Source: a bacterium (GTDB lineage Bacteria > Arandabacterota > Arandabacteria > Arandabacterales > Arandabacteraceae). From it: DNA of 37,458 bases. Location: NCBI GenBank assembly GCA_025774845.1, contig JALGZP010000043.1, forward strand, positions 1-37,458, given 5' to 3'. Below, in pieces: positions 2,904 to 9,118 of this stretch. Numbering within the stretch: the first letter of the stretch is position 1; the number at the start of each line of letters is the position of its first letter. The position numbers were made by a program, and so were the translations under genes. The notes beneath the pieces were generated by a model that had not been told where the DNA came from, searched no databases, and worked only from the letters and a program-made list of their open reading frames with translations.

Positions 2904-4385
2904 ATGACGTACCTGTTGGTGATTGTTCTGACTGTTCCGGTTTTGGTCTTGGCATTCGCAGGTCTCACAGCAGCCGGCGAGATCCATGAGGCAATAAGTG
3001 CCGGAGATCCAGGTAAGGTTGAAGCTATCCTGACCGTTGATCCGGACCAGATCTCGGCCCGTAATGATGCTCTTAGCACACCGCTTCACGTGGCGGTCTC
3101 GGACAGCCAGGTGGACATCGCACGGCTTCTCATCTCAAAAGGCGCGGATATCAACGCCGGTGACAGTGACAACTCGCGGCCAATTCATCTGGCCGCAATT
3201 GATGGCAAGCACGAGCTGGTCGAGATCCTTCTGGAAGCCGGAGCAGACCTTGGGGTTGAGGAGGACTACGGGAACTCCCCACTCACTTACGCAATCTTCG
3301 GCGGCGGTATTGAGATCGTAAATCTCCTGCTCGACCGGGGTGCGGATCCGCACCAAACCAATACGCAGGGCCAGATACCGCTCCAGTACGCAATTGCGAT
3401 CGGACAACTGGAGATAGTTCAGATCCTGGTGGCCCATGGCGCTGATGTGAATCATGTGGATGCCTACGGCCTGACGCCGCTCTTTTCGGCCAAGGCCAGG
3501 GGGTGGGATGAGATCGCCGCTTATCTAAGAGAAGTAGGAGCAACCCGTGACTTCGAAATTCCCAAGGCAAAGGTGGAGAAGCTTGCTCCCGCCTTCCATG
3601 CGGTCACGGTTCTGCTTAGCAACCAAACCAACTGCGGGGTGCAAACAGGAGCGGATGGACTGCTGCTGGTCGATACAGGTTACCAATCGGCGGCACCGCG
3701 AATCCTTGAGGCTCTCGGAAAGATATCCGGGAGCAAGCAGACGGACGATCCCGGTGTTGAATTTATCATCACCACCCATTTACATGGGGATCACTTCTCC
3801 GCCCACAGTTATGTAGATAGTACAGCCACGGTGATCGATTTGACAAACCTTGATCAGATGGTCACCGACGGCATTCTGGTTAAGACCGAGAAGGAGATGA
3901 AGGGCCGCACAGACAAGTCGTTTGCCGCACACTACTCCTTTGCGTTTAACGGTGAGGATATCCTGCTGATTCCGGCACCGGGGACGCACTCGGAAACCGA
4001 TATGCTTATCTGGTTCAAGCCGTCGGATGTGGTCTGTACGGGGAGTCTGCTCCTTTCAGAGGCCTTCCCGGGAGTCTCGGCGGGCAAGATCGAGCCCTAC
4101 CTTGAGATTCTTGACACGATGATCGATGTCTTCCCCGATAATACGATTTTCATGACGGGCCACGGTCGCCCGCTCGACATGAATGGGCTCAGGATATACT
4201 CAAAGATGGTTAAAGACTCAGTGCGGCGGATCCGCGAAGCATCGGAGAAGGGTAAGTCAATCGACGATATGCTGGCTGCGAACATCCTCGGCGCCTGGTC
4301 CGAATACGGTGAGTGTCCTTTTATGCCGTACCAGACTCACCGTCTATGGGTCTCGGCCGTGGCGCGAACCTATAGTGCAGAGTAG
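2904..4385 (+). CDS. exported ankyrin-repeat / metallo-beta-lactamase-fold hydrolase fusion
   Basis: 493 aa, ATG after AGAGGAGGAGAAG. A signal peptide of about 24 residues (hydrophobic core VLTVPVLVLAFAGL) predicts export. Residues about 50-212 are five to six ankyrin repeats (the G-A-D-I/V-N turn and T-P-L-H type helices recur every 33 residues). Residues about 225-490 are a metallo-beta-lactamase fold with a complete zinc site: H292-x-H294-x-D296-H297 (HLHGDH), His362 (GTHSETD) and His420 (GHGRP). The position that is Cys in B1 and a bridging Asp in glyoxalase II is Ser381 (CTGSLLL), as in subclass B3 enzymes. Family knowledge predicts a binuclear zinc hydrolase; the substrate is not predictable. 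The ankyrin domain would bind a protein partner outside the cytoplasm, which is unusual. It stands alone between two genes on the same strand. Confidence 0.88.
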   Translation: MTYLLVIVLTVPVLVLAFAGLTAAGEIHEAISAGDPGKVEAILTVDPDQISARNDALSTPLHVAVSDSQVDIARLLISKGADINAGDSDNSRPIHLAAIDGKHELVEILLEAGADLGVEEDYGNSPLTYAIFGGGIEIVNLLLDRGADPHQTNTQGQIPLQYAIAIGQLEIVQILVAHGADVNHVDAYGLTPLFSAKARGWDEIAAYLREVGATRDFEIPKAKVEKLAPAFHAVTVLLSNQTNCGVQTGADGLLLVDTGYQSAAPRILEALGKISGSKQTDDPGVEFIITTHLHGDHFSAHSYVDSTATVIDLTNLDQMVTDGILVKTEKEMKGRTDKSFAAHYSFAFNGEDILLIPAPGTHSETDMLIWFKPSDVVCTGSLLLSEAFPGVSAGKIEPYLEILDTMIDVFPDNTIFMTGHGRPLDMNGLRIYSKMVKDSVRRIREASEKGKSIDDMLAANILGAWSEYGECPFMPYQTHRLWVSAVARTYSAE

Positions 4386-5703: not shown

Positions 5704-5946
5704 ATGTCAGATACGGTCAAACCCGATAAGACACTTGACTCTATCGGCTTATATTGTCCACAGCCTCTGTTTATGACGCGAGAGGAGATAGATACCCTCG
5801 AAGTCGGCCAGGTACTCGAAGTGCTCAGCGATGACCCGGCAGCGGAGGAGGATTTGAAGCGGTTTGCGAAAAGGACGGGGCATGAACTTCTCAGTATTGA
5901 GAAGCGGGAAGACGTGCTAAGATTCTTGATCAGGAAGGCAAAGTAG
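5704..5946 (+). CDS. TusA-family sulfur-carrier protein
   Basis: 80 aa, ATG preceded by GGGAGGAAG. The TusA hallmark is present: GLYCPQP with Cys18 as the persulfide-carrying residue in a C-P-x-P motif. The rest has the expected two-layer alpha/beta pattern (LEVLSDDPAAEEDLKRF, then a C-terminal strand). TusA proteins accept sulfane sulfur on the cysteine from a desulfurase or rhodanese and hand it to DsrE-type or modification enzymes. It is the first gene of a three-gene run with only 10 bp to the DsrE gene, which supports a sulfur (or possibly selenium) relay. The role in tRNA thiolation known for E. coli TusA cannot be assumed. Confidence 0.9.
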   Translation: MSDTVKPDKTLDSIGLYCPQPLFMTREEIDTLEVGQVLEVLSDDPAAEEDLKRFAKRTGHELLSIEKREDVLRFLIRKAK

Positions 5947-5956
5947 GAGGTGCGTG

Positions 5957-6319
5957 ATGAAGGCCAATAGTTCAATCCTTTATGTCCAGACAAGCGATGA
6001 CGTAGAACGGCAGTATTCCCCTCTGGTTTTGGCACAAACTGCGAAGGCAATGGACATAGATGCCAAGGTGTATTACCTGGGCCAGGCATTGAGAATACTT
6101 AAGCCCGGTGAAGCCGAGAAGATAAAGATGGGAAGCTTCCCGAGTGTCCAGGAGATGATCCAGCAGACCCTTGCAGCCGGTATAGAGATCTATGTCTGTG
6201 AGGCTTCCAAACAGATGCTGGGATGGGACAAGGTCGAGCTGATACCCGGGGTTAAGATAGTCGGGGCCGGGACCTTGAATGATCTGGCTCTCGAAGCCGA
6301 CGCAACGATGTGGTTCTAG
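5957..6319 (+). CDS. DsrE-family sulfur-relay protein
   Basis: 120 aa. The ATG at 5957 is six bases after AGGAGG (5945-5950); an in-frame GTG one codon earlier is too close to it. The protein has the DsrE/F Rossmann-like pattern: SSILYVQTSDD strand-loop, a helix around QYSPLVLAQTAKAM, VQEMIQQTLAAGIEIYVCEAS and a C-terminal GAGTLNDLAL helix. Cys81 (IYVCEAS) sits where the persulfide-accepting cysteine of DsrE lies. TusA and DsrE proteins exchange sulfur directly in sulfur oxidisers, and in selenium-associated YedF proteins the two domains are fused. Here they are adjacent separate genes followed 16 bp later by a desulfurase homologue. Confidence 0.85.
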   Translation: MKANSSILYVQTSDDVERQYSPLVLAQTAKAMDIDAKVYYLGQALRILKPGEAEKIKMGSFPSVQEMIQQTLAAGIEIYVCEASKQMLGWDKVELIPGVKIVGAGTLNDLALEADATMWF

Positions 6320-6335
6320 AGCCGGGGGCAGGTTA

Positions 6336-7496
6336 ATGACCGCATACCTGGATTACCAGTCTTCAAAACCGGTCGATCCCAGGGTGATCGATGCCATGAT
6401 TCCCTATCTCCATGGCAGCTTTGGTAATCCCTCGTCGCTGCACGAGCCGGGAGAGCAAGCCGGAGAGGTTCTGGATAAGTGCCGCCAGACCGTCGCCGCT
6501 TTCATCAACGCCGACAAGGATGAAATCCTGTTCACCTCGGGGGCCACCGAATCAAACAATCTCGCTCTCATAGGTTTTGCACTGCGTAATAAGGACAAAG
6601 GGAACAACATCGTAACGTCAGAGGTAGAGCACATTTCCATCCACAACCTGGCCAAGCACTTGACCAAACTGGGATTCACCGTGTCAGTAGCACCTGTTGA
6701 CCGGTATGGCAGGGTTGACGTAGGTGAGATCGAAGCGCTGATAACTGATGAGACGATCCTCGTGTCCATTGGGTATGCCAGTAACGAGATCGGTACGATC
6801 CAGCCAGTGCAGGAAATCGCCAGGTTATGCGATGAAAGGGACATTGCCTTCCATTCGGATGCAGTAGCGGCTGAAGGCTTGTTGCCTCTGGACGTCAAGG
6901 CGGACAGCATTGGCCTGCTATCGCTGTCATCGAATGATATCTACGGTCCCAAGGGGGTAGGGATTCTCTACAGAAGGAAAGGAATAAGGCTGAAACCGGT
7001 CATAATCGGGGGCGGCCAGGAGTTCGGACTGCGGTCCGGTACAGAGAACATTCCAGGAATAGTCGGAATGGCAGAGGCTGCGAGAATCATGCAACAGGAG
7101 ATGGCTCCGGAAGTCAAGAGGCTCACGGGGTATCGCGACAGGCTGATAGCGACAGTTTTAAAGGAGATCCCCAAGTCTTATCTTAACGGCCACCCGACCG
7201 AGAGACTCCCGAACAATGCGCATTTTCGTTTTGACGGTATCGAAGGAGAGGGTTTGCTTTTGTTACTCGGGGCGAAGGGTATCGCGGCTTCAACCGGCTC
7301 TGCCTGTTCATCAAAAACCCTGGAGCCCTCACGCACCCTGCTGGCCCTGGGACTGTCTCACGAGCAATCGCACGGCTCCCTGGAGTTAACCTGTGGGAGA
7401 TTCAGCAACGACGAAGATGTCGAAGCCGTCTTACATGGATTGCCCAAAGCGGTTGAACGCCTGAGAGAAATATCGCCGATCTATGGCAGCGAGTAA
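6336..7496 (+). CDS. cysteine desulfurase (NifS/IscS) homologue lacking the PLP-binding lysine
   Basis: 386 aa from the ATG at 6336, weakly preceded by GGGGGCAGG. The fold is clearly class V aminotransferase, NifS/IscS type: YLDYQSSKPV, GNPSSLH, TSGATESNN, ASNEIGTIQP, RSGTENIPGIVGM and GSACSSKTLEPS. His99 (stacks on the cofactor in IscS), Asp175 (pyridine nitrogen) and the sulfur-accepting Cys324 are kept. The motif normally S-x-H-K-I-Y-G-P-K-G reads SSNDIYGPKG, so the Schiff-base lysine (IscS Lys206) is Asp201 and the preceding His is Asn200; the IscS Gln183 position is Ala178. The reading frame is intact and the fold otherwise well kept, so this is not a decayed gene. It may be a non-catalytic sulfur acceptor or scaffold, or carry out other chemistry. 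Confidence 0.88.
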   Translation: MTAYLDYQSSKPVDPRVIDAMIPYLHGSFGNPSSLHEPGEQAGEVLDKCRQTVAAFINADKDEILFTSGATESNNLALIGFALRNKDKGNNIVTSEVEHISIHNLAKHLTKLGFTVSVAPVDRYGRVDVGEIEALITDETILVSIGYASNEIGTIQPVQEIARLCDERDIAFHSDAVAAEGLLPLDVKADSIGLLSLSSNDIYGPKGVGILYRRKGIRLKPVIIGGGQEFGLRSGTENIPGIVGMAEAARIMQQEMAPEVKRLTGYRDRLIATVLKEIPKSYLNGHPTERLPNNAHFRFDGIEGEGLLLLLGAKGIAASTGSACSSKTLEPSRTLLALGLSHEQSHGSLELTCGRFSNDEDVEAVLHGLPKAVERLREISPIYGSE

Positions 7497-7582: not shown

Positions 7583-7999
7583 TCACCGGCTCGCGGGAGC
7601 GTCTTGGAGCATGATTCCCATCTCCCCGGCCCTTTTAATCCAGTTATCCGGCTCCAGGTCGAACCGTCTCTTACTTTCGTCGCAGCAGAAGTAGACCCTT
7701 TTCCCTGCATAGTCTGAATAGATGTTGCTCTTGACCGGATTGCCCGACATTATATCTTTGGTTTGCTTCTGCGGTGGCCGGAGAGCTATGTCACTCACCG
7801 GAGGACGCTCGGTAGTCTGAGGCGGAACTTCTCGCTCCTTCACTGCAACTTCCTCGGTTTGCTGTGGGGGCTCCACCACCTTCTTTGCTGTGACTTTTGC
7901 CGCCTCCTGGATTGGCTCTTCCTCTTTGGCACACGAGACAACGATGAGTGCCGTTACCATCAGTGATACCAGCAAGATGCTGGAAACTAGTCTGCGCAT
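7583..7999 (-). CDS. YHS-domain lipoprotein
   Basis: 138 aa, ATG after AGGAGGTGCAGT on the minus strand. The signal peptide ends in a lipobox with lipidated Cys23 (IVVSC). A Glu/Pro/Lys-rich linker covers about residues 25-75. The C-terminal part is a YHS-type metal-binding domain (SGNPV, then YSDYAGKRVYFCC with Cys105-Cys106, then a K-R-R-F helix). YHS domains bind metal ions such as copper or iron and occur in metal ATPases and metal chaperones. The usual first cysteine of the domain (C-G-M-P-V) is Ser here. It lies 82 bp downstream of the Cys-rich gene at 8082-9062 and is probably cotranscribed. Exported metal or redox sensing is plausible; the function is unproven. Confidence 0.8.
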   Translation of the reverse strand: MRRLVSSILLVSLMVTALIVVSCAKEEEPIQEAAKVTAKKVVEPPQQTEEVAVKEREVPPQTTERPPVSDIALRPPQKQTKDIMSGNPVKSNIYSDYAGKRVYFCCDESKRRFDLEPDNWIKRAGEMGIMLQDAPASR

Positions 8000-8081: not shown

Positions 8082-9062
8082 TCAGGGCAGTTCGCCCTGA
8101 GGGATCTTGACTCTGAAGCGACAGCGGTCATCGCCGGCGAGGACACTTTCAAGGACTTCGACCTCGGTCGGTTCTTCAAACACCACATCGAACTTGAGTT
8201 TGGCATAGCCACCGCTACAGTAACACCAGTCAAGTGGGATATCCGGCTTGCCCTCGATTATGGCCGCCCGCGCCAGCGGACAGTGACAACCATAGTAGCG
8301 CTTCATCACGGGGTCGGTCTCTTCCAGCCAGTCCTTTGGCGCGTATGGAAACTTGGTGATGTAGAGGTACTCTCCATCCCGAACGGCGGAGAGTACTTCC
8401 TGATTGCCTCTCACGAACTCGACTATTCCGGGAGTGATCTCCTGCTCGTACCAAACTTTGCCCTCATTCATATAGTGCTCGAGCTCGGCAACGGCCTCAC
8501 CGTGAACCCTTTCTAAGAAGCCATCGATGCTTCCCGCTTCTTTGAACCACTGCTTGTGCTTTTCGAAGCTCTCTAGGGGGATCTCGTGGTGGTTTCCTGC
8601 GAGGACGTTATGGCAGATTTCTGTACCAAGCTTCATAAGATTCCCGACAAGGCGACCGGTGACTGCTGGATATGCTTCCGGCGGCGACCCGAGAGGCGGG
8701 AGCTCGACATCCTTAAAGACCTCATTCCTCGCCGCCTCGCCTGCAAGCGAAACAAGTCGCCCGGAAATGGAGGGGAGTACCTCTCTCCCATTGAGTATTG
8801 CGGTGAAATAGATAAAGACCTCATTTAAACCGGTTATGTAGACATAACGAGCCAGGGATAGAAACCTATCCATGGTGTTCTTCTTCCCCGCAATCAGGAT
8901 ATCTGCATATTGCTTTACATCGTCAACATCGTGAGAGTCGAGACTCTTACCTTTTGCGGCCAGATGCTGCTCGAACTCCTTGACGTACCCCACGGCAGCT
9001 GAGATCGCTTCATCGGTCTGGTTCCGTGAGCGAAGGTAGCCGATGTATTCCTCTTCCCTCAT
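8082..9062 (-). CDS. conserved protein with integrase-like SAM N-terminus and Cys-rich (DUF6144-like) C-terminus
   Basis: 326 aa. The ATG at 9062 has GGAGGT six bases upstream; an ATG ten codons earlier has none. Residues 1-55 look like the SAM-like core-binding helices of tyrosine recombinases (YIGYLRSRNQTDEAISAAVGYV, then FEQHLAAKGKSL), but there is no catalytic recombinase domain. The middle is helical. The C-terminus has C259-H-C261-P-L-A-R, then W-C280-Y-C282-S-G-G-Y and a closing GDDRCRFRVKIP. This recalls the DUF6144/L-ATC hydrolase/V4R group of cysteine-rich ligand- or metal-binding domains; I assign that from memory of the motif, without a search. No signal peptide, so cytoplasmic. 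Function unknown. Confidence 0.75.
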   Translation of the reverse strand: MREEEYIGYLRSRNQTDEAISAAVGYVKEFEQHLAAKGKSLDSHDVDDVKQYADILIAGKKNTMDRFLSLARYVYITGLNEVFIYFTAILNGREVLPSISGRLVSLAGEAARNEVFKDVELPPLGSPPEAYPAVTGRLVGNLMKLGTEICHNVLAGNHHEIPLESFEKHKQWFKEAGSIDGFLERVHGEAVAELEHYMNEGKVWYEQEITPGIVEFVRGNQEVLSAVRDGEYLYITKFPYAPKDWLEETDPVMKRYYGCHCPLARAAIIEGKPDIPLDWCYCSGGYAKLKFDVVFEEPTEVEVLESVLAGDDRCRFRVKIPQGELP

Positions 9063-9118
9063 GTCTGTACCTCCATAGATACACGTGCGCAACTACAGGG
9101 GAGTTGATTACTGTCCCT

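Follow-up and report, generated by a model that had tools for sequence, protein, structure and literature searches.

We describe a bacterial operon of tusA, dsrE, and an iscS-like gene in which the IscS-like protein lacks the Schiff-base lysine of cysteine desulfurases and, by its motif and its monophyly with the solved structure 4EB5, belongs to the Lys-less clade of A. fulgidus IscS. The operon lies in the window, the stretch of 37,458 nucleotides of contig JALGZP010000043.1 analyzed here. Our preferred reading, to which we assign a probability of about one half, is that the ISC branch typified by A. fulgidus IscS, to which the gene belongs, no longer draws its sulfur from cysteine, and that TusA and DsrE load the loop cysteine, Cys324, from which sulfur passes to IscU. 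The direction of sulfur flow in this reading is suggested by gene linkage and by the pattern of residue losses, and the persulfide chemistry and the reductase role are proposals.

The three genes of the operon are on the forward strand, and the gaps between them, 10 bp from tusA to dsrE and 16 bp from dsrE to the iscS-like gene, suggest that they are an operon. The tusA gene (5704..5946) encodes an 80-residue TusA sulfur carrier (Pfam TusA, E 2.5e-25), with the cysteine of its CPxP motif, Cys18, encoded at 5755-5757. The dsrE gene (5957..6319), which starts with the ATG at 5957 and has an alternative GTG at 5954, encodes a 120-residue DsrE-family protein (Pfam DsrE, E 5.8e-17) with a conserved cysteine, Cys81, encoded at 6197-6199. 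Both window proteins were placed in their families by the respective family tests, and the CPxP cysteine of TusA and the DsrE cysteine are preserved in their relatives from such operons. The Lys-less IscS-like gene (6336..7496) is an intact frame of 386 amino acids. Its product is a class V (IscS/NifS) protein by its Aminotran_5 domain (Pfam E 2.3e-71), yet it falls under the NCBIfam equivalog cut-offs, with 464 bits against a cut-off of 531 for the NifS model. Direct re-reading of the sequence bore out the initial annotation in its three reading frames, their coordinates, and the residues it had named (Asn200, Asp201, Ala178, and Cys324). Elsewhere in the window, a forward-strand gene at 2904-4385 encodes a fusion of ankyrin repeats and a metallo-beta-lactamase domain, and on the reverse strand a 336-residue protein with a C-terminus weakly matching DUF6144 (8082-9092) lies beside a YHS-domain protein (7583-7999).

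Alignment to E. coli IscS shows which parts of the desulfurase machinery have been lost. The His-Lys site, H205 and K206 in E. coli, is Asn200-Asp201 in the window protein (6933..6938), so an aspartate stands where an active cysteine desulfurase has its Schiff-base lysine. Structural study of DndA assigned Asn150, Gln178, and Arg353 (CsdB Arg379) to the substrate carboxylate (PMC3343029); in the window protein Asn150 is present, the glutamine is replaced by Ala178 (6867..6869; E. coli Q183, and Gln in 93/93 homologues with His-Lys), and the arginine by Glu350 (7383..7385; E. coli R354). The absence of this arginine, a loss that had escaped the initial annotation, is general: Arg350 is found in 0/92 Lys-less proteins versus 92/93 His-Lys proteins. 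The sulfur-carrying loop cysteine, Cys324 (7305..7307; E. coli C328), is retained, as are His99 and Asp175 (E. coli H104 and D180), and each of these three residues is present in all 92 Lys-less proteins; the equivalent of His99 is cited as an activator of the catalytic cysteine (PMC3343029). Positions of the phosphate site are also mostly preserved in the alignment of Lys-less proteins. Three residues beyond the loop cysteine, at position 327, a basic residue occurs in 90/92 Lys-less proteins, versus mostly Gly or Ser in the His-Lys proteins (Lys in 17/93). With the lysine, Gln178, and Arg350 gone and Cys324 kept, we conclude from these sequences that Lys-less proteins have lost cysteine binding and activation and have retained the sulfur-carrying end. 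The residues corresponding to the E. coli TusA contacts W45, E49, and D52 vary in both Lys-less and Lys-bearing groups and are not specially conserved. A salt bridge between Lys11 and Asp201 was considered as a compensating pair and rejected as a general rule, as position 11 is Cys, Ser, Ala, Met, or Tyr in archaeal Asn-Asp proteins. An AF2 monomer model of the window protein (pLDDT 83.5) is no basis for judgments on the active site: residues 1-9, residues 225-235, and the Cys loop, all of which need the dimer, are poorly modeled.

The Asn-Asp motif defines a large and taxonomically broad group. We compared 185 distinct homologues, including those from added archaeal and bacterial surveys, together with A. 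fulgidus IscS, and the His-Lys site was Asn-Asp or Asn-Glu in 74, otherwise Lys-less in 18, His-Lys in 93, and Asp-Lys in one. The 74 proteins of the first class form a single clade (support 100/99) that includes A. fulgidus IscS, a conserved clade of the kind that the initial annotation had proposed looking for. Because the site is Asn-Asp in 73 of them and Asn-Glu in the other, a sequencing error or strain-specific mutation is ruled out. A scan of genome contigs contributed about 50 close relatives, with Asn-Asp or Asn-Glu wherever the motif was covered; their bacterial records are from WOR-3, Aminicenantes, Stahlbacteria, Eisenbacteria, Syntrophaceae, Actinobacteria, and Nitrospinota, and their archaeal records from Lokiarchaeota, Helarchaeota, Sigynarchaeota, Thorarchaeota, Bathyarchaeota, and Euryarchaeota. 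The earlier suggestion that the loss was selected agrees with an intact frame in the window and with fixation of the loss in a clade found beside tusA and dsrE.

Gene neighborhoods tie the Lys-less proteins to sulfur carriers and to IscU. Among loci flanked on both sides by 900 bp or more, counting partners within 1.5 kb, TusA was near 71/77 Lys-less loci (62/63 Asn-Asp/Glu and 9/14 other) versus 1/85 Lys-bearing loci, DsrE near 51/77 (44/63 and 7/14) versus 0/85, and IscU near 70/77 (60/63 and 10/14) versus 40/85. The Fisher p of 1e-37 for the association of tusA with Lys-less iscS overstates the evidence, since the loci are related and the TusA model was trained on matches from these loci, and a phylogeny-aware test of lysine loss against TusA linkage finds 2-3 independent pairs, too few to reach significance. 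The one exception among Lys-bearing loci, L082 (6001-7137), has TusA nearby and no DsrE; its protein carries Asp-Lys and a Tyr at the Gln178 site, and may be an intermediate. His-Lys relatives beside tusA-dsrE had been proposed as a counter-indication to genuine loss, and this degenerate protein was the only TusA-linked Lys-bearing relative that our search recovered.

The IscU partner, also absent from the initial annotation, is encoded by the fourth gene in relatives, and in most Asn-Asp loci the gene is flanked by tusA, usually dsrE, and iscU. Archaeal relatives 77-87% identical to A. fulgidus IscS likewise have TusA, IscU, and mostly DsrE adjoining. The Cys/Asp set of IscU is conserved in the partner IscU sets examined. 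The partner is often a protein of about 260 residues, in which a segment weakly matching pyridine-nucleotide reductases comes after the IscU domain, and reaches about 450 residues in three loci (L044, L047, and L085); in L047 (8232-9575) IscU is fused to a complete thioredoxin-reductase-like domain, and the segment after IscU in other operons is shorter and remnant-like. Encoded directly 3' of the operon in L042 (8203-10593) and other Lokiarchaeota loci is a protein that resembles disulfide/persulfide reductases and bears rhodanese and TusA domains. In eight WOR-3 relatives (L009, L011, L012, L015-L018, and L020) rubrerythrin-like genes, one confirmed by Pfam, lie upstream of the operon along with genes that read as desulfoferrodoxin- and flavodiiron-like, hinting at oxidative-stress control of these operons.

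A second, bacterial group of Lys-less proteins carries HQ, QQ, QT, HR, SQ, NQ, PQ, QH, NS, SS, or QN at the His-Lys site, and most of its members neighbor IscU, TusA, or DsrE. In none of the bootstrap trees (0%) was one change enough to account for all Lys-less IscS, and the AU test did not reject a single origin (p 0.08); a separate origin of the second group is thus favored by the phylogeny but not proved. Placed beside this group is a His-Lys protein with no Arg350 and a PGSTC loop (L232:1504-2634).

As catalysis is gone and the docking surfaces are known from E. coli, the simplest use of the Lys-less protein would be the transfer of sulfur from TusA/DsrE to Cys324 and on to IscU. TusA and DsrE would be charged from inorganic or other persulfide and would load the loop at Cys324, the reverse of the E. 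coli flow from IscS to TusA, and the loop would then pass sulfur to IscU; alternatively or in addition, it could act as a cysteine ligand during cluster formation on IscU. In many relatives the reductase-like domain fused to IscU could give electrons for persulfide reduction, and in the organism of the window IscU would have to work in trans. Counting for this route, beside the clade, the linkage counts, and the residue pattern given above, are the conserved TusA and DsrE cysteines, the IscU Cys/Asp set, the fusions of IscU to reductase-like domains, some Asgard drafts in which no other IscS/SufS-like protein was found, the E. coli docking geometry, and the reported inactivity of A. fulgidus IscS. 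Counting against it are the absence of DsrE from about a third of Lys-less loci, the lack of special conservation at the E. coli TusA contacts, the small number of independent pairs behind the TusA link, an iscU outside the operon in the window genome, and the ordinary His-Lys desulfurases of that genome. The persulfide-acceptor role raised in the initial annotation is close to what we consider the best reading, a putative non-catalytic persulfide carrier. It is possible, if more doubtful, that these proteins represent a widespread and unrecognized form of ISC with no cysteine desulfurase step, in which catalysis was lost probably at least twice and IscS became a dock that receives sulfur from TusA/DsrE and passes it to IscU, a protein that often has its own reductase-like domain.

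A cluster-ligand scaffold is a rather unlikely alternative: the dead IscS would hold IscU and lend its loop cysteine as a ligand during cluster assembly from iron and free sulfide, with TusA and DsrE serving a separate linked task such as tRNA or cofactor thiolation. This is the published interpretation for A. fulgidus IscS-IscU (PMC7585200), and sulfide is able to feed Fe-S assembly in E. coli without IscS (PMC13015791) and in SMS (PMC12192291). It does not account, however, for the finding that TusA accompanies Lys-less IscS, in two Lys-less groups, but not the Lys-bearing form.

We think it improbable that the Lys-less protein is a relay downstream of an active desulfurase. In such a scheme an ordinary IscS within the same cell would supply sulfur to TusA/DsrE, or would pair with the Lys-less protein in mixed dimers, and the Lys-less protein would hand that sulfur onward. 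A His-Lys IscS is indeed also encoded by the window genome and by many Asn-Asp genomes; several further class V genes lie in the window genome, and among their products are His-Lys enzymes that retain Arg350. The single TusA match of this genome is that of the operon described here, and its single IscU, encoded elsewhere, has its best relatives among the IscU proteins that partner the second Lys-less group; the nearest relative (G001) likewise has no adjacent iscU. Against such a relay, none of the second IscS copies in Asn-Asp genomes is TusA-linked, and no other IscS/SufS-like protein was found in the draft genomes of Helarchaeota G077 and Lokiarchaeota G079, where the remaining class V proteins resemble, on reading their sequences, SepCysS, aminotransferases, and decarboxylases. 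As all of these genomes are drafts, this is no proof of absence, and the case is weaker in G088, where one class V protein is larger and ends in a Cys-containing segment, making it a candidate desulfurase, and in G081, where part of an IscS lies at the edge of a contig.

Changed cofactor chemistry, with PLP or PMP bound without a covalent lysine and another reaction catalyzed or a ligand sensed, is very improbable. It would suit the invariant His99 and Asp175 and the largely preserved phosphate site, which also make the term "non-PLP scaffold" in the initial annotation too strong, and as-isolated A. fulgidus IscS is reported to contain PMP. But neither the base lysine nor the carboxylate arginine is present, and the second group tolerates Q, R, T, N, S, and H at the lysine site, a breadth more like relaxed constraint than like a new catalytic role. 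A decaying pseudogene or assembly error, which loss of a catalytic residue taken alone might suggest, has virtually no chance of being correct given the intact frame and a motif conserved in 74 homologues across many phyla.

In conclusion, while the literature already records that A. fulgidus IscS and M. acetivorans IscS1 lack the lysine, the tusA(-dsrE)-iscS-iscU set, the second Lys-less group, the TusA adjacency counts, and the loss of Arg350 with Cys324, His99, and Asp175 kept are new here. In the open-access literature, with most subscription papers outside its scope, we found no paper linking Lys-less IscS to TusA/DsrE and no description of the second group. Linkage to TusA(-DsrE) across bacteria and archaea, including Asgard, provides concrete candidates for the sulfur donor of the Lys-less A. 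fulgidus IscS-IscU pair, and the sulfur source of that pair, a question since its structure was solved, becomes directly testable. If our preferred reading is true, the best-known machinery for iron-sulfur assembly also has an entry route that needs no cysteine. A further caution is that many genes labeled as cysteine desulfurases are not.

A comparison with known systems places A. fulgidus IscS as the closest solved relative of the window protein, with the shared motif SSNDIYGPKG, and as the closest by fold, with Foldseek TM values of about 0.9 to IscS structures. A. fulgidus IscS 2 (PDB 4EB5, 4EB7, and 4HVK; D199K mutant 4R5F) has an IscU partner and shares the Asn-Asp pair, Ala178, the loop cysteine, and the fold; the Arg350 site is Leu in A. 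fulgidus and Glu in the window protein. The two are about 52-55% identical in structural alignment, and the window operon differs in being bacterial and in having no adjacent iscU. Published work reports desulfurase activity as absent from A. fulgidus IscS and a cysteine ligand given to the IscU cluster, and describes M. acetivorans IscS1 (MA0808-MA0807 for the IscS1-IscU1 pair) as similarly lacking the catalytic lysine and paired with IscU, their genes sharing a cluster with four others of unknown function (PMC7585200). The dead desulfurase core that the initial annotation called unusual is not unprecedented: the motif recurs in A. fulgidus IscS, whose structure is solved and whose inactivity is published, and M. 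acetivorans IscS1 lacks the lysine as well. In E. coli, TusA and IscU occupy different docking sites on IscS, and Cys328 faces TusA Cys19 (PMC2854127). The fold and both partners are as in the Lys-less set; unlike the window protein, E. coli IscS is an active PLP cysteine desulfurase that sends sulfur to TusA, and E. coli tusA lies outside the isc operon rather than with the iscS-like gene. In sulfur-oxidizing microbes, TusA and DsrE are persulfide carriers for inorganic sulfur that feed Dsr or Hdr-type oxidation, whereas their partners here are an IscS-like protein and IscU. The SMS system (SmsCB) also builds clusters without a cysteine desulfurase and is fed by sulfide (PMC12192291), but it does so from free sulfide on a SufBC-like scaffold rather than on IscS/IscU.
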